From positions 1-54,009 of the forward strand of contig DATKAB010000074.1 in the NCBI GenBank assembly GCA_035498555.1: DNA of 54,009 nt, written 5' to 3'. Made by a program: the position numbers and the translations under genes. Positions 39,762-53,382 of this stretch are shown in pieces. The notes beneath the pieces were generated by a model. The model saw nothing but the letters and a program-made list of their open reading frames with translations, did not search any database and had not been told where the DNA came from. Source of the DNA: Candidatus Sulfotelmatobacter sp. (GTDB lineage Bacteria > Eisenbacteria > RBG-16-71-46). The first letter of the stretch is position 1. Every line of letters begins with the position of its first letter.

Positions 39762-40979
39762 CTACTCGTACCTCAGCGCGTCCACGGGATCGAGGCGCGA
39801 GGCGCGCAGCGCCGGGTAGTAGCCGAAGAACAGGCCCACCAGCGTCGCGAAGCCGAATGCCACCATCACCGCCTCGGGTTGCACCAGCGTCGGCCACCGG
39901 GCGATCTGCGAGACCAGCATGGCGGCCAGCACGCCGATCAGCACGCCGAGCGCGCCGCCGGCCAGCGACAGGAACGCGGCCTCGACCAGGAACTGGAGCA
40001 GGATGTCGCGCCGCCTCGCACCGATCGCGCGCCGAATCCCGATCTCACGCGTCCGCTCGGTGACCGAGACCAGCATGATGTTCATGATGCCGATGCCGCC
40101 GACCAGCAGCGAGACCGCCGCAATGCTGGCGAGCAGCAGCGTCATCACCTGCGACGTGGCCTCGGCGGTGTTGGCGGCCTCGAGCTGGGTGCGAATGAAG
40201 AAGTCGTCGGGCGTGCCCGACCGGATGCGGTGGCGCTGGCGGAGCAGATCGGTGATCTGGTTCACGGCCTCGTTCACCTGGGTCTCGTCCACCGCCGAGA
40301 CCAGGATCCAGTTGACATAGGTGATGCCCATCAGCTTGTGCTGCGCGGTGGTCACCGGGATCAGCACGGTGTCGTCCACGTCGCCGCCCCAGCCGCTCCC
40401 CCCCTTGTAGCTCAGCACCCCGACCACGCGGAATGGAATGTCCTTGATGCGCACGGTAGAGCCGATCGGATCGGAATCGCCGAACAGCTGCTTCACCACG
40501 CTCTGGCCGAGCACGCAGACCTTGGCGGCGCCGCGCACGTCGGACTCGGTGAAGAACGCGCCCCTGTCCACCGGCCACTGCCGGATGGTGACGAAGTCGG
40601 GCGTGGTGCCCTGAATCGAAGTGCCCCAGTTGGTGTTGCCGGCGACCACCTGCGCCACCGAGCGCGTGCCGGGAGAGGAAGCGTCCACCGCGGGACACTC
40701 GCGCTTGATCGCGGTTGCGTCGTCGATGGTCATGGTGGTGATGCCGCCCATGCCGCCGTGCGCGCCGCCCGAGGTGATGGTCCCGGGAATCACGCTGAGC
40801 GTGTTGGCGCCGAGCGCGCGGATCTGCGCCTGCACCGCGGCGCGGGCCCCCTGACCGATCGCCAGGGTCGCGATCACCGCCGCGACGCCGATCACGATGC
40901 CGAGCACGGTGAGCGCGGAGCGCATGCGATTGCGCGACAGCGCCACGGTTCCAATCGAGAGCAGCGTCCCGAAGTTCAT
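39762..40979 (-). CDS. MacB-type ABC transporter permease without ATPase domain
   Basis: The protein has 405 residues. One N-terminal transmembrane helix (RSALTVLGIVIGVAAVIATLAIG) and three C-terminal ones flank a large periplasmic domain, the MacB/FtsX permease plan. Typical marks are ERTREIGIRRAIGARRRDILLQFL and the terminal YYPALRASRLDPVDALRYE. E. coli MacB carries its ATPase at the N terminus. Here it is absent and no separate ATPase gene lies beside it, so the ATP-binding partner must be encoded elsewhere. The ATG at 40979 overlaps the adaptor gene's stop as ATGA. The likely role is mechanotransmission-driven efflux or outer-membrane export. Confidence 0.93.
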   Translation of the reverse strand: MNFGTLLSIGTVALSRNRMRSALTVLGIVIGVAAVIATLAIGQGARAAVQAQIRALGANTLSVIPGTITSGGAHGGMGGITTMTIDDATAIKRECPAVDASSPGTRSVAQVVAGNTNWGTSIQGTTPDFVTIRQWPVDRGAFFTESDVRGAAKVCVLGQSVVKQLFGDSDPIGSTVRIKDIPFRVVGVLSYKGGSGWGGDVDDTVLIPVTTAQHKLMGITYVNWILVSAVDETQVNEAVNQITDLLRQRHRIRSGTPDDFFIRTQLEAANTAEATSQVMTLLLASIAAVSLLVGGIGIMNIMLVSVTERTREIGIRRAIGARRRDILLQFLVEAAFLSLAGGALGVLIGVLAAMLVSQIARWPTLVQPEAVMVAFGFATLVGLFFGYYPALRASRLDPVDALRYE

Positions 40980-42607
40980 CGCGTGCGCCCTCCGCCTCCG
41001 CCGCCACTCGGACGAGCGCCGCCTCCGAACGGACTTCCCATGCCCGGAGGAGGCTGGAGGTTGGTGGCGGTCTTGCTCGCCTCGATCCCCACGATCACCG
41101 CATCCCCCGGCCTCAGCTGGTCGGTCTGCACCTCGGTGTAGGCGCCATCGGTCATGCCGGCCATCAGCGCGACTCGCACCGGCTGGGCTCCACGCAGCGC
41201 GTAGACCGTTCCCGGCTTCATCGGCGCCGTCCCGATCGTGCCCATCACCACCGGCCCGGTCTCGGGCGGCGCGACCTTCTTGCCGGCGGGCGCCTCGCCC
41301 TGCCTGCCGAAGTTCTTGAACGACGGCGGCGCGGCCCCCGTCCCGCCGCCGCCGCTGCGCATCTGCTCCATGCGCTGCCGAAGCCGTTCGCGGATCTCGT
41401 CGTCCTTGAGGCCCTGGGCGCGCAACTGCGCGATCGCCTGATCGCGACGCTCGAGCACGCTCTGAATCATGTCCTCGGGCATGCCATGGTCCCGCATGCG
41501 CTTTTCGAGGGCCGCGCGATCGGGGTCCTTCGGCCCGCCGAGCCGCGTCGGATCCGAGGCCGCGGTGCCCGCCGCACCCGCACCCTTGCCCGCGGCGGCC
41601 GGGGGCGGCCCGTCGGCGGCGGCGGCGGTGCCGGCGCTCTCCTGGCGGTTGGCTCCGGCCTGCGCGGCCTCGGCCATCGCCTTCAGGGCCTCGGGCGGCG
41701 GGCGGAAGCGAAGCGCCGAGTTCGGAACTTTGAGCACGTCCTCGCGGTGGGCGACGCGCACCGAAACGTTGGCGGTCATCCCGGGCCGAAGCTTGAGATC
41801 CAGGTTGGCCGTGCTGATCACGGTGGTGTAGGTGACCACGTTCTGGTCGATGATGGGCTCGAGTCGCACCTGCGACACCTGCCCCTCGAACTGTTGGTCC
41901 GGGAACGCGTCCACCGTGAAGATCACGGGCAGGCCCGGGCGTATCTGGCCGATGTCGGCCTCGTCGATGCGGGTCTCGACCTGCATCTGCGACAGATCGT
42001 TGGCGATCGTGAACAGCTTGGGCGCCTGAAGGCTCGCCGCCACGGTCTGGCCGAGATCCACCGAGCGATCGATCACGACGCCATCGATCGGCGAGCGGAT
42101 GGTGGCGTTGTTGAGATCCACCTGCGAGGCTTCGAGGGCGGCGCGCGATTGCTTGAGATCGGCCTGGCGCTGTTGAAGAGTGGACTCCGCGGTATCGACG
42201 TCGGATTGCGAGACATAGTTCCCCGGCAGCAGCTCCTTTGCCCGATTCAGGTCGAGCTGCGCCTGATGTACCGCGGCCTCCGCCCGCGCCACCGCCGCCT
42301 CGGCCTGCGCGAGACGCGCCTTGAACCCCGAGGGCTCCAGTTCGCAGAGCACGTCACCGGTGCGCACGCGCATGTTGTAATCGGCGTGCAGCTTCCACAC
42401 CGTGCCGCTCACCTGGCTGCCGACGTCCACCTGCACCACCGGCTCGATCGTGCCGGTCGCCGAAACCACCGCTTCGATGTTGCCTCGCTCGACCAGCGCG
42501 GTGCGGTACTGGATCTGCTCCGTGCGCCCGTGCGACCACCAGATCCAGCCTGCCCCCAGCAGGACGATCGCGATCACGGCAAACGTGACGAGTCGCGAAC
42601 GGCTCAC
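40976..42607 (-). CDS. MacA-type periplasmic adaptor with long low-complexity insert
   Basis: A membrane fusion protein of 543 residues. An N-terminal anchor (VTFAVIAIVLLGAGWIWW) is followed by a lipoyl-like half (GNIEAVVSATGTIEPVVQVDVG, VGSQVSGTVWKL). An alpha-hairpin (about 100-150) and the second lipoyl half (ATIRSPIDGVVIDRSVDLGQTV) come next, then beta-barrel segments. Residues about 280-410 form an unusual insert. It starts with Ala, Gly and Pro-rich sequence and continues as charged helices (ALEKRMRDHGMPEDMIQSVL, DDEIRERLRQRMEQM). The family core resumes after it. The C terminus is Gly-rich. I use GTG 42607 because GGGAGG lies four bases upstream; ATG 42622 is an alternative. Confidence 0.9.
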   Translation of the reverse strand: MSRSRLVTFAVIAIVLLGAGWIWWSHGRTEQIQYRTALVERGNIEAVVSATGTIEPVVQVDVGSQVSGTVWKLHADYNMRVRTGDVLCELEPSGFKARLAQAEAAVARAEAAVHQAQLDLNRAKELLPGNYVSQSDVDTAESTLQQRQADLKQSRAALEASQVDLNNATIRSPIDGVVIDRSVDLGQTVAASLQAPKLFTIANDLSQMQVETRIDEADIGQIRPGLPVIFTVDAFPDQQFEGQVSQVRLEPIIDQNVVTYTTVISTANLDLKLRPGMTANVSVRVAHREDVLKVPNSALRFRPPPEALKAMAEAAQAGANRQESAGTAAAADGPPPAAAGKGAGAAGTAASDPTRLGGPKDPDRAALEKRMRDHGMPEDMIQSVLERRDQAIAQLRAQGLKDDEIRERLRQRMEQMRSGGGGTGAAPPSFKNFGRQGEAPAGKKVAPPETGPVVMGTIGTAPMKPGTVYALRGAQPVRVALMAGMTDGAYTEVQTDQLRPGDAVIVGIEASKTATNLQPPPGMGSPFGGGARPSGGGGGGRTR

Positions 42608-42860: not shown

Positions 42861-43775
42861 ATGGATGCGTTACGCGCCCGTTCGGTTGCCCGCGTCCTGT
42901 GGAGCATCCTCGGACTGAACGTCCTGGTGGCCGCGGCCAAGCTGGCCTACGGCTACCGATCACACGCCATCGCCATCTCGGCCGACGGCCTGCATTCGCT
43001 GATCGACGGCATGTCGAACATCGTCGGGCTGGTCGGGTTGCAGGTCGCGAGCCGCCCACCCGACGCCAACCACCCCTACGGGCACCGCAAGTACGAAACG
43101 TTCGCAGCGATGGGGGTGGCCGCCCTGTTGTTCGTCGGCTGCCGCGAAATCCTGGGCTCGAGCCTCGAACGCCTGCGGCACCCGAGACTCCCGGAAGTGG
43201 GGGCGGCCGGCTATCTCGTGCTGTTCGTCACCATCACCATCAATCTGGTCGTGGTGATCTACGAGCGGCGGGCGGCGCACCGCCTGAACAGCGAGCTGCT
43301 GCTCTCGGATGCCGCCCACACCGGCAGCGACGTGCTGGCCAGCGTGCTGGTGCTGGTGAGCTTCGCCCTGGCCCCCCTTCGCCACCGCTGGGTGGACCTG
43401 GCCGCCGCGCTGGTCATCGTCGGGCTGATCCTGCGCAGTGGTTGGGAGATCCTGCGCTCGACGCTCTCGACGCTTTCGGACGAGCGGCGCATCGATCCCG
43501 CCCTGGTCGAGGCCGCGGCGCTCGAGGTCGCGGGGGTGCGAGAGGCGCACAACGTACGCTCGCGCGGCCCCCACGACGACATTCACCTCGATCTTCACGT
43601 GCTCGTGGATCCCGGGATGCCGATCGCCGCCGCCCACGCCCTCAGCCACTCGGTCGAACAACGCCTGCGCAGTCGCTGGCAGGGATTGACCGACGTGGTG
43701 GTCCATGTCGAGCCGGCCCTCGACAGCGAGCGCGCCACCCACAGCGAAGGCGGCGGGTTGAAGGCGGAAGGCTGA
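42861..43775 (+). CDS. Cation diffusion facilitator, probable zinc exporter
   Basis: The protein has 304 residues: six transmembrane helices (to about residue 205) and a C-terminal cytoplasmic ferredoxin-like domain. The transport site is readable. In TM2, H45-x3-D49 lies in ADGLHSLIDG; in TM5, H153-x3-D157 lies in DAAHTGSDVL, at the same positions as in E. coli YiiP. The HD-HD arrangement is typical of zinc-selective members (YiiP has DD-HD). The C-terminal domain has HNVRSRGPHDDIHLDLHVLVDP, the usual regulatory metal region. The start is ATG 42861. It converges with the YncE-like gene; eight bases separate the stops. Confidence 0.93.
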   Translation: MDALRARSVARVLWSILGLNVLVAAAKLAYGYRSHAIAISADGLHSLIDGMSNIVGLVGLQVASRPPDANHPYGHRKYETFAAMGVAALLFVGCREILGSSLERLRHPRLPEVGAAGYLVLFVTITINLVVVIYERRAAHRLNSELLLSDAAHTGSDVLASVLVLVSFALAPLRHRWVDLAAALVIVGLILRSGWEILRSTLSTLSDERRIDPALVEAAALEVAGVREAHNVRSRGPHDDIHLDLHVLVDPGMPIAAAHALSHSVEQRLRSRWQGLTDVVVHVEPALDSERATHSEGGGLKAEG

Positions 43776-43783
43776 CCGGGGTC

Positions 43784-44821
43784 TTACTTTCGCTTCAACA
43801 CCAGCACGCGGAAGGTCCCCGGCTGAATCGTCGGCCGCGGGTGCGGGCGCTCCTCGGTCGGCGCCGGTGCCGGCCCGAAATCCGCGGTGACCACGTAGAC
43901 CGTGCCGGAGCCTGCATCGAGGGCCATGGTGCGCGCGCCGCGTTCGGTGGTCGCATTCTCGACCACCGTGTACTTGTCGGGCGAATCCTCGTGGATCACG
44001 GTGAGCGTCCCCTCACCATTCGAGCTGAAGATCAGATTGCGATTGGGATCGAACGCCACCGCATCCACGCCCTTGCCGATCGGGAGCGTCGCGACCACCG
44101 CACCCTGGTCGGCGTCCAGGACCACCAGCTTCTGGTTCGAACAGCCCGAGAACAGGCGGCGGTGCTTGCGGTCCATGGCGAGCCCGCTCGGTTCCTCGCC
44201 GGGCGCGATCGGCCAGCGATGCAGCACCCGAAGGGTGCGCGCATCGAACGCCACCACGCAGCTGCTGTCCTCGATGTTCACGAACATCGCGCCCTTGCCG
44301 TCGGCGACCGCGAATTCGGGCTTGCCGTCGAGTGGGACGCTCCCCACCAGTCGTGCGCTCGGGGCGTCGATCGCGCTGGCGTTGCCGCTGCCGCCGTTGA
44401 AGGTGAAAACGCGCCGCGACACCGGATCGTAGGCGATGGCGTCGGGATTCCGTGCGTCGAGCTTGATCTGGCTCGAGACCGCGAGCGATTTGTAGTCGAA
44501 CACCGACACGGTGGAATCCCGGCCGTTGCTGGTGAAGCCGCGCCCCAGCTCGGGTGCGAGGGCCACGCCGTGCACTCCGAGCGTGTTCGGGATGTCGCCC
44601 ACCACCCGGTCGTTCCGGGTGTCGACCACCTGCACGTGGGTTCCATGCGAAACGAACAGGCGCTGGCCGGGAACGTCCATGGTGAGGTAGTCCCAACCGC
44701 CTTCCCCGCCGAGCAGGATCCTGCGATCGACCTTGAACGCACCGGCGGCCGAGGCGAGCGATGCCCAGGCCATGACCGACGCGACCAGCCACGTGACGGC
44801 GCCGCGAGAAACGCACTTCAT
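43784..44821 (-). CDS. Secreted YncE-like beta-propeller protein
   Basis: The protein has 345 residues. A signal peptide (VTWLVASVMAWASLASAAGA) is followed by repeats of 40-45 residues, each starting with a segment such as QRLFVSHGTHVQVVDTRNDRVVGDIPN. This is the YVTN/YncE seven-bladed propeller pattern. The C terminus adds a Pro-rich loop (FGPAPAPTEERPHPRP) and a last strand. Its role is unknown; such proteins can bind ligands or partner proteins in the periplasm. The ATG start at 44821 overlaps the RND pump stop as ATGA, so it is the last gene of the efflux operon and is translated with the pump. That coupling suggests a subunit or sensor role. Confidence 0.88.
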   Translation of the reverse strand: MKCVSRGAVTWLVASVMAWASLASAAGAFKVDRRILLGGEGGWDYLTMDVPGQRLFVSHGTHVQVVDTRNDRVVGDIPNTLGVHGVALAPELGRGFTSNGRDSTVSVFDYKSLAVSSQIKLDARNPDAIAYDPVSRRVFTFNGGSGNASAIDAPSARLVGSVPLDGKPEFAVADGKGAMFVNIEDSSCVVAFDARTLRVLHRWPIAPGEEPSGLAMDRKHRRLFSGCSNQKLVVLDADQGAVVATLPIGKGVDAVAFDPNRNLIFSSNGEGTLTVIHEDSPDKYTVVENATTERGARTMALDAGSGTVYVVTADFGPAPAPTEERPHPRPTIQPGTFRVLVLKRK

Positions 44822-47800
44822 GACGGACCTCCTGTGAGGGGAACCGATGGGGGTACGTGAGGATCGACGATCGGAGCCGCGCGATCGAACGAAAGCAGGG
44901 ACGGCAAACCGAACAGCAGCAGCGGAGTCGAGAGCGCGAACCCGCCGGTGACCGCCAGCGCCAGCGGCCGGAGGAGCGCGCTACCCGCGCCCCAGCCCAG
45001 CACCAGTGGCAGCAGCGCGGCGATGCCCGCCGACGCGGTCATCAGGATCGGCCGCACGCGGCGCTGGGCGGCGGCGCGCGCGGCCTCGCCCGGCGCGGCT
45101 CCCGAGCAGCGCAATCGCCTGAACTCGGCCACCAGGAACACGGCGTTCTCCGACACGATGCCCACCACCATGATCGCCCCGACGAAGCTCGACAGGTTCA
45201 GCGACTCGTCCGCGATCCGCAACGCCATGAAGACGCCGGCCAGCGAGGCGACCGCCGTCAGCATCACCGCGATCGCCGGCCACCATGCACGGAACGCGAT
45301 CAGCAGCAGGAACAGTACCGCGAACACCGCGAGCCCGAGCACCACCGCCAGCCCCTGGAACGACGACTGCTGCTCGGCCCACAGCCCGGCGTACTGGAGC
45401 CTCACGCCGCGCGCCGATTCGAGACTGTCGCGCAGGCGTGTCTGGATCTCGGCCACCGCCGAGCCGAGGTCGCGATCCGAGAGCCGGCCGGTCACCGACA
45501 CCATGGTGCGCTGATCGTCGCGCTGGATTTCCGCATCGCCGGGCACCACGCCGGCCACGCTGAGATCGCCGAGCCGCGCCCGCCCGCCCTCCGGCAGCAC
45601 CGCCTCGAGGTCCATGAGCGAAGCGAGCCGGTCGTTGGGGGGCGCGGGCAGGGTCACGCGGATCGGCCACACGCGCGTGCGGCGAGGCACTTCGCCGGCC
45701 TCGATGCCGCGGATGCGCGGCGCCACCAGGTCCTCGAGTTCTTCGGCGTCCACTCCCAGCCGCTCGGCGCGCTCCGAGGGCGCAATCACCAGGTTGGGTC
45801 CGCTCACCACCACCCCGTCGCGCACGTCGACTACGCCGCGCACTCGCGAAATCAAGGCGGCGACGCGCCCCGCGACATCGCGACCCAGCGGGCGATCTTC
45901 GGAGAACACGCGCACTTCGATCGGGTGGGGGTTGGAGGTGAGATCGCCGATCACGTCCTCGATCAACTGGCCGAAATCCACGTCCACTCCCGGCACCGTC
46001 GCTTCGATGCGATCGCGCAGATCGTCCGCCACCTGGTCGGCGCTCCGGCGGCGACGATCCTTGAGCTTGAGAATGTAGTCGCCGGTATTGGGCTCGGTGA
46101 TGAAGAAACCGAGCTGATCGCCGGTCCGCCGCGACCACGACTCGATCTCGGGCGTGGCGTCGAGCTGGCGTTCGAGCGGGCGGAGCATGCGCACCGTCTC
46201 CTCGAGCGAGGTCCCGGGCGGGGTGATGTAATCGAGGATCAACGCGCCCTCGTCCATCGAAGGCAGAAACTCGGTCTCGATGCCGCGGAGCAGCGCCGCG
46301 CCCCCCAGCGCCACGCCCAGCATGCCGGCGAGCGCGAGCGCCCGGCGCTTCGTGACGAAGCCGATCCAGCCGCGCCCCAGGTTCGGAAACGGCAGCCGCG
46401 GTGCGCGAGCGCGGCCGGCGAAATGCGGCAGCAGCGTGACGCACAACGCCAGCGACACCGCGAGCATCAGCGAGACCGAGATCGCCAGCACCCGAAAGAA
46501 GGCGCCGGCGACGCCGCCGAGCAGCGCGAACGGCACAAAGATCGCGAGCGAGCAGAGGCTCGAGGTGAACAGCGTGGGGAACAGCTCGGCCAGCGCCTCG
46601 TGGCGGTCGCGGCCGCGCGCTCGCTCGTGAGCCAGGTGCTCCACCACCACGATCGCGTCGTCGAGCACCAGCCCGGTGGCGGCGGCGATGCCGCCGAGCG
46701 TCATCAGATTGAGCGACTGGTGAGCGAGCCCGAGCCCGAGCAAGGACAGCGCGATGCTGCCCGGGAGGAGGACCGCGGCTCTCGCGCCCAACGAAGCGCT
46801 GCCGAGGAAGAGCGTCACGATCAGGATGGCGAACCACCCGCCCACCAGCAGACTGTCGCGCACGCTCGAGATCGAGGCGCGCACCAGATCGCCCTGATCG
46901 TAGAAGGTCGAGAACTTGAGATCGGCCGGGAACTCGGCCCGGTGCTCCCGGAACCAGCCACGCACCGCATCAGCCAGCGTGACGGTGCTGGCCGAGGACT
47001 GGCGGAGCAGATTGATCAGTACTGGCTCCCCCCCCGGCGAGCCGTAGCGCGTGAAACGCGGCTGGTCGGCGATCTCGACGCGACCGAGCGAACCGAGCGG
47101 AACGACCGCGCCTGCTCCGAGTGGGATCGGTAGCCCGCGCAGCTGGTCGAGATCGCGCGGCCGCTGATCCACCAGCGCCAGGTACATCTCTCGATTGGCG
47201 GAATGGAGTCCGAGGCTACGCAGCTCGGCGGCGTGCGCGACGGCCTCGGCGACTTCGGCCACGGTGAGCCCCCGCGCCGTCAGCGCGGAGGGATCCAGCG
47301 TCACGCGCGCCTCGGGCCTGGCGCCGCCCTGCAGCACCACCTCGGCGACGCCGGGCAGCCGCGCCAGCTCGGGTCTCAGCTGGACCTCGGCGATGTCGCG
47401 CAGCTCGGCCTGGCTGCGCGTCGGCGAAGTGAGCGACAGGCCCAGCACCGGGAACAGGGTCGGATTCATGAGCCGGGCGTCGAGCCCGGTGCCGCCGGGC
47501 AGCTCCTCGCGCACCGAATTCGCCAGCGCCTGGACGCGCTGGAGCGCGAGGTTCATGTCGGTGGACCAGTCGAAGTCGAGGTCCATTTCGGTCGAGCCGC
47601 GACTGGTGGTCGAACGCAGCTCGCGAAGTCCGGGCACGCGCCGGATGCCTTGCTCGAGCGGCATCGTCACCTGGCGCAACATTTCCTCGGTGTCGCGCTC
47701 GCCGCTGTCGGCGATCAGGGTGATGCGCGGGAACGTGACCTCGGGAAGGATCGCGGCCGGCAGTCGCAGCGCCATGACCACGCCGGCCGCGGCGAGGAAG

Positions 47801-47859
47801 AGGAACGCGAGCAGCACGGCGCGATGTTGCGCGGCCAGCGCGCGAAAGACCGAAGTCAC
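44818..47859 (-). CDS. RND efflux pump, inner-membrane permease
   Basis: The protein has 1013 residues, with two repeats of six helices and large periplasmic loops. TM4 has GLVLDDAIVVVEH (D400, D401), the proton-relay aspartates of the AcrB/HAE1 type. In TM10 the sequence is GIVSENAVFLVAEF, with Glu904 where AcrB has the relay Lys. CusA-type metal pumps also have a Glu in TM10, but their TM11 Lys (RPKAMT) is missing here (RRVRPILMT). The pump thus mixes features of drug and metal classes, and its substrate is uncertain. The GTG start at 47859 overlaps the adaptor stop as GTGA. It needs the adjacent adaptor and TolC-like channel. Confidence 0.93.
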   Translation of the reverse strand: MTSVFRALAAQHRAVLLAFLFLAAAGVVMALRLPAAILPEVTFPRITLIADSGERDTEEMLRQVTMPLEQGIRRVPGLRELRSTTSRGSTEMDLDFDWSTDMNLALQRVQALANSVREELPGGTGLDARLMNPTLFPVLGLSLTSPTRSQAELRDIAEVQLRPELARLPGVAEVVLQGGARPEARVTLDPSALTARGLTVAEVAEAVAHAAELRSLGLHSANREMYLALVDQRPRDLDQLRGLPIPLGAGAVVPLGSLGRVEIADQPRFTRYGSPGGEPVLINLLRQSSASTVTLADAVRGWFREHRAEFPADLKFSTFYDQGDLVRASISSVRDSLLVGGWFAILIVTLFLGSASLGARAAVLLPGSIALSLLGLGLAHQSLNLMTLGGIAAATGLVLDDAIVVVEHLAHERARGRDRHEALAELFPTLFTSSLCSLAIFVPFALLGGVAGAFFRVLAISVSLMLAVSLALCVTLLPHFAGRARAPRLPFPNLGRGWIGFVTKRRALALAGMLGVALGGAALLRGIETEFLPSMDEGALILDYITPPGTSLEETVRMLRPLERQLDATPEIESWSRRTGDQLGFFITEPNTGDYILKLKDRRRRSADQVADDLRDRIEATVPGVDVDFGQLIEDVIGDLTSNPHPIEVRVFSEDRPLGRDVAGRVAALISRVRGVVDVRDGVVVSGPNLVIAPSERAERLGVDAEELEDLVAPRIRGIEAGEVPRRTRVWPIRVTLPAPPNDRLASLMDLEAVLPEGGRARLGDLSVAGVVPGDAEIQRDDQRTMVSVTGRLSDRDLGSAVAEIQTRLRDSLESARGVRLQYAGLWAEQQSSFQGLAVVLGLAVFAVLFLLLIAFRAWWPAIAVMLTAVASLAGVFMALRIADESLNLSSFVGAIMVVGIVSENAVFLVAEFRRLRCSGAAPGEAARAAAQRRVRPILMTASAGIAALLPLVLGWGAGSALLRPLALAVTGGFALSTPLLLFGLPSLLSFDRAAPIVDPHVPPSVPLTGGPS

Positions 47860-48836
47860 GGCTCCGGGCTCACCGTCACGCCGTCGATGAGCGCCCGCTG
47901 TTCCTCGACGATGACTCGAAGCCCGGGTTTCAACCCGGGCGCCGACACGGCGCGCGTCTGCCCCTCGCGCGGGCCCAGCTCGACATCGATCCACTGGACG
48001 CGACTCAGCGAATCGACCACCGCGATGCGGTGCTTGCCGGTGAGATCGTCTTCGACCACCGCCGAATCCGGCACGGCGAGCGCCCGGGTATGGACGCCGG
48101 TCGCGATCCGCGCGGTGCCGAACCGTCCGATCTCCGGAGGATGTCCGCCCCCCTCGGCTTTGAGCCAGACCAGCTCGGATTGATCGCCGGCCGCGGTCGG
48201 CAGCAGCGTCCACACCCGCGCCGCGCGATCGGGCTCGGAAGCGCCGATCAGCGTCGCCGGCATGCCCACGCGAACCTGGTCCCGGCGGTCGGCGGGGACG
48301 CGCGCCTCGAACACCACCGCGTCGTTGGCGACCAGCGCCAGCACCTCTCCCCCCGCGGTCAGCCGCGAGCCCTCGTCGGTCTGCCGGCGCAGCACGATGC
48401 CGCTCACCGGCGAGAGAATCGGCACGCGCACCACCGACGCCTTCGCGTTGCGCAGCTCCCTCGCCGCTTCGCGCGAGGCCGAGGAGTCCTGCGCCTGCTC
48501 GAGCAGCAGCTCGGCGCCGTGCACGACGGCTTCGGATTCGTAGGTGCGCCACCAGCCGAGCCGCGCGCCCTTTTCCACCGAATCGCCCGGCCGGGCCTGC
48601 AGCGACTCGAGAATGGCGTCGAAGGGGGCCTGGATCACGGTCTCGGTCGATGCCTTCCACTGGCCCGGAGCCTCGATGTCGCCGCGGAACTCGTGCGCGG
48701 CCATCGTGACCACGTGAACCGTCGGATGCAGTCGGCCCTCGCTCCCGGCCGGCGTGCCGGCATGCCGGGCGCAGCCCAGCAGCCCGGCCAACCACAGCCA
48801 TCCCACCCAGAACCGGACAGCCCCGGCGCGTCGCAC
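47856..48836 (-). CDS. RND efflux membrane fusion lipoprotein
   Basis: The protein has 326 residues. A lipobox (WLAGLLGC, C22) indicates a lipid-anchored periplasmic adaptor. A first lipoyl half (DAILESLQARPGDSVEKGARLG), a short alpha-hairpin (about 85-125) and a second lipoyl half (PILSPVSGIVLRRQTDEGSRL) follow. Beta-barrel and membrane-proximal domains complete it. The hairpin is short compared with AcrA. The start is GTG 48836, three bases after the channel gene. It belongs to a tripartite system with the pump (44818) and the TolC-like channel (48840). Confidence 0.88.
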   Translation of the reverse strand: MRRAGAVRFWVGWLWLAGLLGCARHAGTPAGSEGRLHPTVHVVTMAAHEFRGDIEAPGQWKASTETVIQAPFDAILESLQARPGDSVEKGARLGWWRTYESEAVVHGAELLLEQAQDSSASREAARELRNAKASVVRVPILSPVSGIVLRRQTDEGSRLTAGGEVLALVANDAVVFEARVPADRRDQVRVGMPATLIGASEPDRAARVWTLLPTAAGDQSELVWLKAEGGGHPPEIGRFGTARIATGVHTRALAVPDSAVVEDDLTGKHRIAVVDSLSRVQWIDVELGPREGQTRAVSAPGLKPGLRVIVEEQRALIDGVTVSPEP

Positions 48837-48839
48837 CGG

Positions 48840-50186
48840 CTAGCTCCCGATCTCGCCCTCGAGCCGGGTGAGCAGCAACTCGCCGCGCGCCGCCTCGAGC
48901 TGGTCACGATCTTCATCGAGAATCTTGCGTGCATCGATCAGGTCGAGCAGTGACCCCGATCCCGACAAGTACAGGCTCTGCACGCGCAACGCGTGGAGTT
49001 CGGCCATCGACGCGGCGTCACGCTGCAGCGCGAGCCGGCGCGCGGCCGAACGCCAGCGGCTGAGCAGATCGAGCGCGGCGCGGCGCGAGCTGTTCATCGC
49101 CAGGTTTGCCCGCAGCTCGGCGGCGCGCACGGCCGATTCACGCGCCCCAATCGTGGCGGTGACCCCTGGCTGCAGGAGCGGGAGCAGGAAATCGATCGTG
49201 ACCGATGCGCCGAGATCGCGCTTGAGGCGATCCGAGAACGTGGCGGCGCCGACCGGCGGCACGTCGGGCGGCACGGCGCGCGTGAGATCGGTGCCGAGCA
49301 GGCCGGCGTCCAGCGTCGCGCCGAGCCTCGACGCGCGCTGACCGCGCGCCGAAGCCAGATCGAGGCGCGCCAGTTCGAGCTCGGTGGTGGCGCGCGTCAC
49401 CTCGCTCGAGTTCTCGAACAGGCGCAGGACGGCGGCGCTGTCGGCGGGCTCCGGAGGCCCTTCGGCCCACGACGAATCGCGCACGTCGGTGAAGGAGTAG
49501 TCGATCGAGTCGGGGACGAGTATCGCGCCCAACTCGCGCCCCTGTCGCTCGAGCCCGGCGTCCAGGTCATCGATCTCGACCGACAGGGTCTGCAGATCGA
49601 GCCTCAGGCGGGCCACGTCCGACGGGCTCCGCGTTCCCGCGCGCGCGCTGGCTTCGATCGAATGAACGACGCCCTCGGTCCAATTGCGCGAGGCGACTCT
49701 TCGCCGCAGGCCCGCCGTGGTCTGGAGGATCCCGACCGCCAGCTCGGCCGCCCGCCCGGCGGCCTCGCGCCGCGCCGCGGCCAGGTCGGTCTCGGCGCGG
49801 TGCGCCGCGGCTCCGGCGCGGGCGCGTTCCCGGCCGAGCGCGCCGCCGTCGTACAGCGTCATGCTGCTCACCAGCCTCAGGTCGAACTGACCCTCATTGG
49901 TGGCCGCGGGATCATAGGAACCGTCGGGAACCAGCCAGGCGCTGGAGTGAAGGTGAAGTTCCGGATGGGCGTTGGCGCGGGCGGCCAGGGCGTCCTGACG
50001 CGAAGCATGGAGTCCCTCGGCGGCGGCCTGCACTTGGAGCGCGTGTTCCCGCGCGCGCGCCATGCACTCGCGCACCGAAAGCGAGTCGGCCGCTCGCGCC
50101 GCGGCGGGCGCGGCGACGCTCGACGCGGCCGCCATCACCATGGCCGCGGCCGCCGCGAGGCGAGTCTCGAACCGACGCGCGATCAA
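48840..50186 (-). CDS. TolC-like outer-membrane efflux channel
   Basis: The protein has 448 residues. A signal peptide (LAAAAAMVMAAASSVAAPAAARA) precedes two outer-membrane efflux protein (OEP) repeats of long helices. The repeats include CMARAREHALQVQAAAEGL and SMTLYDGGALGRERARAGAA, and in the second half SVTIDFLLPLLQPGVTATIGA and LYLSGSGSLLDLIDARKIL. The last of these is a hallmark of the family. The TTG start at 50186 overlaps the PepSY-like gene stop as TTGA. It should form the exit duct for the adjacent RND pump. Confidence 0.9.
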   Translation of the reverse strand: MIARRFETRLAAAAAMVMAAASSVAAPAAARAADSLSVRECMARAREHALQVQAAAEGLHASRQDALAARANAHPELHLHSSAWLVPDGSYDPAATNEGQFDLRLVSSMTLYDGGALGRERARAGAAAHRAETDLAAARREAAGRAAELAVGILQTTAGLRRRVASRNWTEGVVHSIEASARAGTRSPSDVARLRLDLQTLSVEIDDLDAGLERQGRELGAILVPDSIDYSFTDVRDSSWAEGPPEPADSAAVLRLFENSSEVTRATTELELARLDLASARGQRASRLGATLDAGLLGTDLTRAVPPDVPPVGAATFSDRLKRDLGASVTIDFLLPLLQPGVTATIGARESAVRAAELRANLAMNSSRRAALDLLSRWRSAARRLALQRDAASMAELHALRVQSLYLSGSGSLLDLIDARKILDEDRDQLEAARGELLLTRLEGEIGS

Positions 50187-50668
50187 TCCTCTCGCCCGAT
50201 CTTCTCTTCGTGAACGAGTCGGCCCGAGGAGTCGTACTCAAGCTCGGAGCGCAGGTCGCCCTCCCGGATCGCCAGCTCGTAACGCGGAGGAAGTTTCGAG
50301 CCGAGTTCCACGATGCGCTCGGAACGCGTCACGGAGCCGCCCGCGTGCCGCGAAGCGGCAAGGCTCGTGCGCACCGGCTGCGGCACCTCGTGCCAGGGGA
50401 TCGTGGTCTCTTCCAGCTTCAGCACCCCGAGCGAATCGAAGCTCGCGTCGACGTGGCGGCCATCGTTGTTCAGCTCGGCTTCGAACATCAGCCGGCCGTG
50501 CTCCCGCTCGCGTGAGAACCCGAGACGCTGGGCGCTCGGATAGTGCTTCTGAACGGATGCTCGCACCGCGGCTGGAAGATCTTCGAACTTCACCCGGACT
50601 TCGCCAGCCATCGCAACCACGGTCCAGCCCGCGGCCACGAGTGCGGCGGCGATCGCAAGCGTGCGCAT
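50183..50668 (-). CDS. Periplasmic PepSY-like domain protein
   Basis: The protein has 161 residues. A signal peptide (MRTLAIAAALVAAGWTVVAMA) is followed by two tandem PepSY-like units. The first is VKFEDLPAAVRASVQKHYPSAQ with a beta segment to VDASFDSLGVLKLEETTIP. The second is WHEVPQPVRTSLAASR with YELAIREGDLRSELEYDSSG. Proteins of this type often accompany two-component systems and may hold inhibitors or sense misfolding or metals; that is family knowledge, not shown here. The ATG at 50668 has no ribosome binding site, and TACCAC lies seven bases upstream, so it may have its own leaderless promoter. It lies 35 bases after the kinase gene and is coupled to the channel gene. Confidence 0.75.
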   Translation of the reverse strand: MRTLAIAAALVAAGWTVVAMAGEVRVKFEDLPAAVRASVQKHYPSAQRLGFSREREHGRLMFEAELNNDGRHVDASFDSLGVLKLEETTIPWHEVPQPVRTSLAASRHAGGSVTRSERIVELGSKLPPRYELAIREGDLRSELEYDSSGRLVHEEKIGRED

Positions 50669-50703
50669 GGAGCGAGTGGTAGCGCGGCGACCTGAACCAG
50701 GGC

Positions 50704-52044
50704 TTAACCGAGCTCGCGCTCCTCGAGCGGCGCCCAGGCCGGCATGCGCATCTCGAATCGGGCTCCGCCGAGCGGAGAGGTCTTTACCGTGACGTCGCCG
50801 CGATGCGCGCGCGCCACGCGTCGCAGCAGGGGAAGGCCGAGGCCGAAGCCCGACTGCTCGGCCCGCGCGCGCGCGCTGCGATAGAAGGCGTCGAAGATTC
50901 GTTCGCGATCTCCGGGGGCGATGCCCGGCCCGTCGTCGTCCACCAGCACCACGCACTCCCGCTCGCGATGGAACACCGACACCTGAACGTGCCCGCCGGC
51001 CGAGGTCGCCTTGAGAGCGTTGGTGAGAAGGTTGCGGATCGCCGCGGCGAGCAGCTGCGGATCGCCGTTCACCAGCACCTCGTCCTGGGACTCGAGCACG
51101 AGGTCCGGCTTTCGATCGGGCATGCGGGCGCGCAGCTCGTCGGTCGCGTCTCGCGCCATGTCGGAGAGGTTGACGGCCGCGCGCATGCCGCGAAGATCGC
51201 CGTTGGCCTGCTCGGCGCGTCGCAGCAGCAGCAGCGCCTCGACCAGCGCGCTCAAGTCGCGCGCCTGATCCGAGGCGTTGCGCAGCGATTCGCGCCGGCT
51301 CGAGGGCAACCGGGCGTCTCCCGCGAAGCCTTCGAGCTCTCCGGAGATGACGGTGAGCGGCGTCCTCAGCTCATGCGCGGCATCCTGCGTGAAGCGGCGC
51401 TCCGCCTCGAGAAGCTCGTCGAGACGGGCGAACAGCCGGTGGAACGCGTCGGCGAGACGCGCCACCTCCTCCGGATCCGTTGGCCCCGCGAGCGGCGCGA
51501 GACGCCCATCCTTCGCCGCCGATTCCGCCAAAGCCGTCATCCGAGACAGCGGCGCAAGGGCGCGCCGCGCGAGCGCACGGCTCATGGCCAGCGTCACGAG
51601 CAGGAGCGGCAGCGACGCCAACGCCATCGCCGTGATCAGCGCGGCGATCGCTCGCCGGCGCGGCTCGGTGGACAGCCCCACCACCACCCAGGCCCCGCGC
51701 GGCACGTGGATCGTGTAGTCGCGCGTGGTGCCGGATCGATCCGGCCGCGCGGAACTGCCGGCGACGTGGCGGCGGTTCTCGTCGAGCACCTCGACGCGAG
51801 CTCCCGCGGGCGCGTCATCGGTGACCGCCGACTGCGCCGCGCGAGCGAGACTGCCGTCTTCTGCCCACTCGGCTTCGAGGCTGTTGGCGAACTGCGAGGC
51901 CGCCCCCAGCAAGGCGAGATTCTCCTCGCGCTCGAGGGTTCGGGCCGAGAGGACGATCGCCGAGCCCGCGAACAGCGCGATGACGGCCACGGCCAGGATG
52001 AGCTGGAGCAGCACCAGCCGGCCTTCCAGCGAACGCGCCTTCAC
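50704..52044 (-). CDS. Sensor histidine kinase
   Basis: The protein has 446 residues. TM1 (LVLLQLILAVAVIALFAGSAIV) and TM2 (AALITAMALASLPLLLVTLAM) flank a periplasmic sensor of about 100 residues. A HAMP linker (ARRALAPLSRMTALAESA) follows, then the dimerisation helix with H224 in FTQDAAHELRTPLTVI. The ATPase domain shows the N-box AAAIRNLLTNALKA, the G1 box VDDDGPGIAPGDRERIFDAF and the G2 box GFGLGLPLL. This is the QseC/CusS-like class. The GTG start at 52044 overlaps the response regulator stop as GTGA. It probably senses an envelope signal and controls the efflux genes downstream. Confidence 0.94.
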   Translation of the reverse strand: MKARSLEGRLVLLQLILAVAVIALFAGSAIVLSARTLEREENLALLGAASQFANSLEAEWAEDGSLARAAQSAVTDDAPAGARVEVLDENRRHVAGSSARPDRSGTTRDYTIHVPRGAWVVVGLSTEPRRRAIAALITAMALASLPLLLVTLAMSRALARRALAPLSRMTALAESAAKDGRLAPLAGPTDPEEVARLADAFHRLFARLDELLEAERRFTQDAAHELRTPLTVISGELEGFAGDARLPSSRRESLRNASDQARDLSALVEALLLLRRAEQANGDLRGMRAAVNLSDMARDATDELRARMPDRKPDLVLESQDEVLVNGDPQLLAAAIRNLLTNALKATSAGGHVQVSVFHRERECVVLVDDDGPGIAPGDRERIFDAFYRSARARAEQSGFGLGLPLLRRVARAHRGDVTVKTSPLGGARFEMRMPAWAPLEERELG

Positions 52045-52715
52045 GGGCGGATCTCGATCGCCAGCCCGGCCCCGCGCAGGGTCCGGATCCCGATGCCCGA
52101 GCCGGGACCGCCGAGCTTGCGCCGCAGCCGGCTCAGGATCACGTCGAGGCTCGCGGACTGGGTGGGGCCCGCGCCATGCCAGATCAGCTCGAGCAGCTCC
52201 ACGCGCTCGACCACACGGCCGTCGCGCGCGATCAGGGCCTCGAGCACCGCCCACTCGCGTGCGGTCAGCGGCACCTCGCCGCCGTTCTGCTCGAGCCGGC
52301 GGGTCGCGAAGTCGATTCGCGTGGCCTGGGCCGCCACCCGTCGCGGCGGCGCGGTTCCGGCTCGCCGGCCGAGCGCGCGCAGCCGCGCGTGCAGCTCGGC
52401 CAGCGCGAACGGCTTCTTCAGATAGTCGTCGGCCCCGGCGTCGAGGCCCTTCACGCGATCCTCGACGTCGGCTCGCGCCGACAGGCAGAGCACCGGCGTC
52501 GTCACGCCGGTGGCGCGTAACGAGCGGCAGAGCTCGAGACCGTCACCGTCCGGGAGCATCAGGTCGAGCACGATGACGTCGAAACTCACCTGGCTCGCGC
52601 GCTGGAGTGCCGTGCTGCATCGCGACACGCACTCCGCGTCCATTCCGGCATCTTCGAGCGAGCGCTTGAGCAGCCCGCGCGTCGGGGCGTGGTCTTCGAC
52701 CACCAGGATCCGCAT
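52041..52715 (-). CDS. OmpR-family response regulator
   Basis: The protein has 224 residues. The receiver domain has the acidic pair E7 and D8, the phosphoacceptor D51 (VIVLDLMLPDGDG) and Lys in YLKKPF. The C-terminal winged helix reads LTAREWAVLEALIARDGRVV, then SASLDVILSRLRRKL and IRTLRGAGLAIE. This is the OmpR/PhoB layout. The ATG at 52715 lies six bases after a TAGACT -10-like element. It is the first gene of the two-component and efflux unit. Confidence 0.95.
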   Translation of the reverse strand: MRILVVEDHAPTRGLLKRSLEDAGMDAECVSRCSTALQRASQVSFDVIVLDLMLPDGDGLELCRSLRATGVTTPVLCLSARADVEDRVKGLDAGADDYLKKPFALAELHARLRALGRRAGTAPPRRVAAQATRIDFATRRLEQNGGEVPLTAREWAVLEALIARDGRVVERVELLELIWHGAGPTQSASLDVILSRLRRKLGGPGSGIGIRTLRGAGLAIEIRP

Positions 52716-52737: not shown

Positions 52738-53382
52738 CTACACGGCAAGGTCGTCCCGGAGCGCCTTCGCCAGCGCCTCGCCCAGCTCGCCGAGCTTGCG
52801 GTCGAAGAAATGGGTCGCGCCCTGGATCCACACCAGGCGCTTCGGCTCCGCCCAGTTCGGGAAGTCCTTTTCGAGCAGCTCCGGCGGGCAGACGTCGTCG
52901 GCGGTGCCCTGGATCACGAGCTTGGCGGCTCTCGCGCGGTACATGCTCGCGAAGCTCGAGGTCTTGAGCGCCGGCGCCACCAGGATCACGCGCTCGACCT
53001 CGGGGGATTCGGCGGTGAGCCGAGCCGCGATCCAGGAGCCGAACGAGAAGCCGGCGAGCCAGGCGCGCGCACCGGGGTGGCGCCACCGCAGCCAGGCGAG
53101 CGCGGCGCGAGCGTCCTCCGTCTCGCCCTCGCCGCGATCGTGAGTGCCGGCGCTCTTCCCCACGCCGCGGAAGTTGAAGCGCAGCACCGCCGCGCCCATG
53201 CCGAACAGGGTCGACGCCACGCGGTGCACGACCTTGTTGTGCATTGTGCCGCCATAGAGCGGATGCGGATGGCAAACCACCACCACCAGCGCCGGCTCGC
53301 GGCCCTCGCGATCCTGAAGCAGCGCCTCGAGCGGCCCGGCCGGACCGGGAATCGTGATCGCCGCGAGCCGGTCCGCGCTCAA
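52738..53382 (-). CDS. Alpha/beta hydrolase, dienelactone-hydrolase-like
   Basis: The protein has 214 residues with the alpha/beta-hydrolase fold. VVVCHPHPLYGGTMHNKVV contains the H-P-H-P oxyanion region typical of this subgroup. The nucleophile Ser lies in LAGFSFGSW (G-x-S-x-G), the acid Asp in IQGTADDVCP and the catalytic His in GATHFFDRK. The subgroup (YdeN/"alpha-beta hydrolase of unknown substrate") is broadly distributed. The TTG start at 53382 overlaps the upstream gene's stop as TTGA; a longer reading upstream would lie inside that gene. It is co-transcribed with the 159-residue protein. Confidence 0.88.
   Translation of the reverse strand: MSADRLAAITIPGPAGPLEALLQDREGREPALVVVVCHPHPLYGGTMHNKVVHRVASTLFGMGAAVLRFNFRGVGKSAGTHDRGEGETEDARAALAWLRWRHPGARAWLAGFSFGSWIAARLTAESPEVERVILVAPALKTSSFASMYRARAAKLVIQGTADDVCPPELLEKDFPNWAEPKRLVWIQGATHFFDRKLGELGEALAKALRDDLAV

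Follow-up and report, generated by a model that had tools for sequence, protein, structure and literature searches.

Do the two secreted proteins encoded beside a tripartite efflux pump belong with that pump, or are they its neighbours by accident? The question arises from a 54,009-nucleotide contig of Candidatus Sulfotelmatobacter sp. (Eisenbacteria; assembly GCA_035498555.1, contig DATKAB010000074.1), analysed at full length and hereafter called the window. Near one end, seven genes encode, in order, a response regulator, a histidine kinase, a PepSY-like protein, a TolC-like channel, a lipoprotein adaptor, a resistance-nodulation-division (RND) pump and a YncE-like beta-propeller. This order had been proposed from the letters of the DNA before any database was consulted, and Pfam or fold comparison supports every assignment. 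That sequence-only reading described the PepSY-like protein and the propeller as locked to the pump. We find instead that the gene set is optional: it is associated with one branch of RND pumps and the two-component genes of those pumps, and it recurs, shuffled and not always complete, in at least four phyla (the window's own, Bacteroidota, Acidobacteriota and Alphaproteobacteria). The set seems to be a genuine export system, apparently one not described before.

Conserved co-occurrence with this RND clade had been put forward as the check to make, and PepSY-type and propeller genes do recur in several phyla. A scan of named genomes beyond the window's own phylum returned full-length pump relatives at 32-38% identity. 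Among 296 Bacteroidota genomes the propeller was present in 16, the pump in 23 and both in 14 (Fisher p 3e-16), and among 199 Acidobacteriota genomes the corresponding counts were 41, 42 and 28 (p 3e-14); neither p value is corrected for shared ancestry. The association exceeds chance, and linkage recurs in several different arrangements and across phyla. The two genes were linked in 9 of the 14 Bacteroidota genomes, with the propeller downstream on the same strand, downstream and convergent, or upstream, and in 17 of the 28 Acidobacteriota genomes, in four gene arrangements. At 28 Bacteroidota loci with pumps of the clade, PepSY genes were found at 17, propellers at 12 (including one at a distance of 9 kb) and two-component genes at 16, whereas 64 control loci with RND pumps from outside the clade lacked the propeller altogether and gave a single weak PepSY match, in an unrelated large protein.

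Full sets were seen in Pedobacter, Chloracidobacterium, Sphingomonas and Hymenobacter. The Pedobacter locus (L078) runs in one direction as regulator, kinase, PepSY_like, PAP2 phosphatase, TolC, adaptor, RND and propeller, which is the window's order plus one gene. All seven genes occur in Chloracidobacterium (L247), and a Sphingomonas plasmid carries them together with PAP2 and DUF347 genes; a Hymenobacter plasmid has the arrangement EamA-PAP2-DUF347-propeller-PAP2, PepSY, and regulator-kinase-TolC-adaptor-RND. Smaller or rearranged groups include adaptor-RND-propeller in Arcicella and another Bacteroidota metagenome-assembled genome (MAG), regulator-kinase-YncE-TolC-adaptor-RND on a Granulicella plasmid, and propeller-kinase-regulator divergent from the pump in a Bryobacteraceae MAG. 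Regulator-kinase-propeller trios were present at twelve listed loci (L091, L213, L225, L247, L248, L313, L315, L324, L328, L331, L335 and L336), and three loci (L079, L216 and L229) have the pump and the propeller with no adjacent two-component genes. The accessory set can also exist apart from the pump: on the Spirosoma linguale plasmid pSLIN01 (L316), PepSY-kinase-regulator genes are accompanied by PAP2, propeller, EamA and PAP2 genes, and no RND gene lies in that stretch. A plasmid tblastn search gave no match for the pump at E 1e-90 and none for the kinase at E 1e-30. Unlinked propellers had no common neighbour gene that would account for them. One propeller of 48% identity, on a plasmid of Paraburkholderia sp. 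FT54 (L314), lies between a TonB-dependent receptor gene and ExbB-ExbD-TonB genes, near an acid phosphatase gene and in a stretch with no RND pump.

In the window's own phylum the pump orthologs form a sharply separate group (55-67% identity, next best about 30%) and occur in 10 of 47 genomes, including one in genome G010 that is cut by a contig end; the window's source genome has nine ACR_tran matches, the pump among them. Channel and adaptor adjoin the pump wherever the contig permits, and regulator and kinase are present at most of these loci. The propeller is adjacent at three of the ten: in the window and G019 it lies downstream of the pump, and in G010 it diverges from the regulator. PepSY-type genes stand between kinase and channel at only two, the window and G010, and the G010 protein belongs to another family (PF03413, as against PF11396 in the window). 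Propellers of at least 43% identity were found in eleven genomes of the phylum, and pump and propeller together in six (p 0.006). At one locus (L036, genome G012) the pump gene is split across two reading frames, reflecting either a sequencing error or a pseudogene.

The pumps of these loci have a common and, in curated families, unnamed position. A tree of 164 RND proteins gathers every propeller-linked pump of this type included in it into one clade of 76 (support 1.00). That clade is the sister of the clade holding CusA (support 1.00) and stands apart from AcrB and MdtB/C. The exception is L069, whose chromate-type propeller has an RND of the heavy-metal (HME) side nearby. The window pump is thus outside the CusA/CzcA clade, and it scores far under the curated cut-offs of both HME-RND (TIGR00914, 368.4 against 701.45 bits) and HAE1 multidrug pumps (TIGR00915, 246.4 against 940.35 bits). 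Its closest solved structure by sequence is ZneA. At AcrB positions 407, 408 and 940, the window pump and clade members of Bacteroidota and Sphingomonas read DDE and those of Acidobacteriota and Verrucomicrobiota DDK, compared with DAE in CusA and DDK in AcrB. Position 940, that of the proton-relay lysine, is cleanly split, with Glu in the window's phylum, Bacteroidota and Sphingomonas and Lys in Acidobacteriota and Verrucomicrobiota. Of the CusA metal-site methionines M573, M623 and M672, the first and third are replaced by Asp in 72 of the 72 members compared and the second is variable, so a CusA-type methionine site was rejected. The adaptor matches the RND_mfp and CzcB/NccB profiles below their cut-offs, and its lipobox was identified by eye.

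The propeller was assigned largely by structure. Its Pfam matches are weak and of WD40/PQQ type, and its AlphaFold model (pLDDT 88.4, pTM 0.85) matches solved seven-bladed propellers, the best Foldseek match being E. coli YncE (3vgz, TM 0.75-0.80). Curated profiles place it neither with true YncE (NF052280, 41.8 against 400 bits) nor with the stabilisers of MmpL3/TtfA (NF048007, 26.6 against 600 bits). Seven polar residues, D44, H84, D127, E169, S212, D253 and R297 in the window, each occupy the same position of their blade repeat (in GGWD, GVHG, NPDA, KPEF, EPSG, GVDA and GART) at or beside the start of the innermost strands, and would form a ring around the pore, as judged from strand positions only. 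The ring is common to 16 diverse propellers, pump-linked or not, with S, T or H at 212 and R or K at 297; five of its seven positions are strictly invariant among them, as against 15 of 338 other positions. A sister group of propellers (about 30% identity) is found in chromate-resistance operons of the window's phylum, of Cupriavidus metallidurans pMOL28 and of Arthrobacter FB24 plasmids, and these keep D44 and D253 with most other ring positions changed. We infer that the ring may bind a ligand and that its make-up may follow the ligand. At five loci of the window's phylum (L069, L070, L072, L073 and L074), this second propeller family lies directly beside ChrB-domain or chromate-transporter genes.

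On the sensor side, the best subfamily of the kinase is the heavy-metal sensor kinases (TIGR01386), below the cut-off of that profile. The PepSY-like protein belongs to PF11396 (DUF2874) by Pfam gathering score and by fold; its AlphaFold model (pLDDT 84) matches the solved DUF2874 proteins 4k61, 4hbr and 4ipb, the top match being described as calcium-binding. Its gene lies 35 bases from the kinase gene, well within the four genes that we allowed for a DbfQRS-type arrangement. In Vibrio, binding of the PepSY protein DbfQ switches the kinase DbfS towards phosphatase activity (PMC12714742); UipA, as reviewed, is another PepSY precedent (PMC8963506), and a mycobacterial seven-bladed propeller stabilises the complex of the RND-superfamily transporter MmpL3 (PMC6593404). 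These systems are precedents for parts of the unit, not for the whole. The two-component genes do not form one orthologous system across loci; the regulators split into several groups, one of them near CusR, and that of the window groups with mmfR without support.

The mmf region of Tn6048, to which a metal response has been ascribed (PMC4914505), holds PepSY, phosphatase, DUF347, two-component and EamA genes, and genes of the same kinds recur beside pumps of the clade. PAP2 phosphatase genes lie near 12 of 49 clade loci as against 2 of 64 controls, and EamA and DUF347 genes near 6 and 4 of the 49, respectively, as against none of the 64. Relatives such as L312 carry the mmf content (PF03413 PepSY, phosphatase, DUF347, EamA and a two-component system), and the DUF347 protein of the Chloracidobacterium locus is about 70% identical to that of the mmf-bearing plasmid pHB44. 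That plasmid altered growth at limiting Fe and V and conferred resistance to bacitracin (PMC4914505). The window unit is not itself an mmf cassette, having a PF11396 PepSY protein and no PAP2, DUF347 or EamA gene in the unit.

Taken together, these data lead us to favour, tentatively, a sensor-regulated tripartite efflux operon that is conserved but facultatively assembled, in which the PepSY protein tunes the kinase and the propeller binds substrate. The signal sensed by the kinase would be a periplasmic toxicant or its damaging effects; the PepSY_like protein may bind the periplasmic loop of the kinase and set its activity, by analogy with DbfQ and DbfS; and the regulator would turn the operon on. 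The pump would then take its substrate from the periplasm and expel it through adaptor and channel. The propeller would be a periplasmic ligand-binding accessory that captures or delivers substrate through its polar pore ring, a role like that of CusF. The likeliest putative substrate class is a metal ion, a metal complex or another charged toxicant, as suggested by the sister relation to metal pumps, the acidic positions and the mmf and chromate contexts, and more weakly by a convergent cation-efflux gene beside the operon. A more specific form is possible, if doubtful: a so far nameless sister subfamily of the heavy-metal RND exporters would be a four-part exporter with the propeller as periplasmic substrate receptor, specificity set by the seven-residue ring, and the PepSY protein as a co-sensor that tunes expression.

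Several observations weigh against the favoured operon. In the window's phylum, six of the nine pump loci with an intact record have neither a PepSY nor a propeller gene adjacent; pumps that lack the propeller are common, as are propellers that lack the pump, and the existence of pump-only and propeller-only genomes excludes an obligate seven-gene unit. Pumps without either gene had been named beforehand as proof of an accidental association; such relatives exist, and yet the association is not accidental. The ring is also conserved in unlinked propellers, and hence is no proof of a role at the pump; at ten or more loci the propeller gene stands next to that of the kinase instead of that of the pump; the window lacks PAP2, DUF347 and EamA; and the pHB44 phenotypes were ascribed to its genes only tentatively by the authors (PMC4914505). 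The earlier proposal that the propeller is a fourth pump component or receptor is refined accordingly. It is a member of the gene set as a whole, but because it directly follows the kinase gene at so many loci, membership of the pump is not provable from gene order.

The same position after the kinase means that the propeller may serve sensing instead, which is our main uncertainty. Propeller and PepSY protein might both be periplasmic co-receptors of the kinase, presenting its signal or buffering it, and never contact the pump; the twelve trios, the Spirosoma plasmid and the DbfQ precedent are consistent with this. At other loci, including the window, the propeller gene comes straight after that of the pump instead of that of the kinase, and the three pump-propeller loci lacking adjacent two-component genes also argue against it, and we consider it unlikely. 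A common regulon, in which pump, propeller and PepSY protein act separately on one stress and are neighbours through shared two-component control, would suit the fluid gene order, the frequent loss of single parts and the similar joining of PAP2, DUF347 and EamA; restriction to one RND clade is not explained by a regulon alone, which makes this quite unlikely as a full account. The propeller could also be a stabilising scaffold of the RND complex that binds no substrate, as MSMEG_5308 is for MmpL3/TtfA (PMC6593404). The NF048007 match (E 3e-6) points that way but falls far under the cut-off, and because propellers of genomes lacking this pump keep the ring, which a scaffold leaves unexplained, a pure scaffold role seems improbable. 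Chance neighbourhood in one genome, for which most pump loci of the window's phylum might speak in having neither accessory gene, is extremely improbable, being already refuted by the recurrence across phyla and the absence of propellers around control RND loci unless shared ancestry accounts for everything.

In the window, all seven genes are intact on one strand by open reading frame and Pfam checks, and the five genes expected of a tripartite RND efflux system with a two-component regulator are all adjacent (Table 1). The sequence-only reading counted five 4-base overlaps besides a 3-base and a 35-base gap. The gaps are present (TolC/adaptor and kinase/PepSY, respectively), but there are six junctions and only four such overlaps: regulator/kinase (GTGA), PepSY/TolC (TTGA), adaptor/RND (GTGA) and RND/propeller (ATGA). 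This overlap carries little weight and no special meaning, because 13 of 36 same-strand neighbour pairs across the window have the same length. Translation of the propeller from the stop codon of the pump had also been suggested; its start does overlap that stop, but the propeller has an AGGAGG of its own, six bases ahead of its start and inside the pump gene.

Table 1. Features of the seven-gene unit, in window coordinates.
Feature	Position	Strand	Evidence
OmpR-type response regulator	52041..52715	-	Response_reg and Trans_reg_C above Pfam cut-offs; translation
Membrane histidine kinase	50704..52044	-	GTG start; HisKA and HATPase_c above Pfam cut-off
PepSY_like (PF11396, DUF2874) secreted protein, two repeats	50183..50668	-	PF11396 31.5 bits against cut-off 28.3
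TolC/OEP-type outer-membrane channel	48840..50186	-	TTG start; OEP PF02321, 2.8e-22
Periplasmic adaptor (membrane fusion protein), lipoprotein signal LLGC	47856..48836	-	GTG start; HlyD_3 and HlyD_D23
RND permease, HME-sister clade, DDE at AcrB 407/408/940	44818..47859	-	GTG start; ACR_tran 1.3e-163
AGGAGG ribosome-binding sequence of propeller gene, within 3' end of RND gene	44828..44833	-	Sequence
Secreted seven-bladed YncE-like beta-propeller	43784..44821	-	ATG start; AlphaFold model, Foldseek

Other genes flank the unit. A cation diffusion facilitator (CDF) gene (Cation_efflux, ZT_dimer; 42861-43775, plus strand) converges on the operon, its own end lying 8 bases from the propeller stop, and is a weak hint of metals. 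Beyond it, at 39762-42607 on the minus strand, a HlyD-type adaptor gene is followed with a 4-base overlap by a putative MacB/FtsX-type permease gene (assigned by eye), a separate export system near the operon. Upstream, an alpha/beta hydrolase gene (52738-53382, minus strand) runs in the same direction as the regulator gene and stops 22 bases short of its start, which could place the transcript start further upstream; this gene is not kept in the relative L029.

Most YncE-like propellers and PepSY_like proteins, both widespread, have no assigned function, and their link to a single RND clade and its two-component genes, rebuilt repeatedly across phyla, offers each a role that can be tested. 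It also marks out the RND clade beside the heavy-metal pumps and connects an export pump with the mmf cassette, which is poorly explained. The view that no system of this composition (RND pump, two-component system, PepSY protein and propeller) had been described agrees with our literature searches, which gave no paper and covered subscription journals thinly. Known systems resemble parts of it. MSMEG_5308/Rv1057 of the MmpL3 complex (PMC6593404) is likewise a seven-bladed propeller working with an RND-superfamily transporter, but of another class and with no adaptor or TolC. E. coli YncE has the same fold; it is about 19% identical to the window propeller, does not share the ring residues and adjoins pqqU rather than a pump. 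The chromate-operon YncE-family proteins retain two of the ring aspartates but are linked to ChrA/ChrB and not to the window's pump clade. In DbfQRS of Vibrio cholerae (PMC12714742) a small secreted PepSY protein is also encoded beside kinase and regulator, although DbfQ is of PF03413 and the system as described has no pump or propeller. The mmf cassette of Tn6048 (Cupriavidus; Variovorax plasmid pHB44) has a gene set that recurs beside the pump in the window's relatives, whereas in pHB44 the cassette includes neither RND pump nor propeller. CusRS-CusCFBA of E. coli likewise sets a two-component system beside channel, small periplasmic protein, adaptor and RND pump, and CusA shares the Glu at the AcrB K940 position. 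The window pump differs in its second aspartate in transmembrane helix 4 (TM4) and its lack of the methionine site, and where Cus has CusF, the window has a propeller and a PepSY protein.

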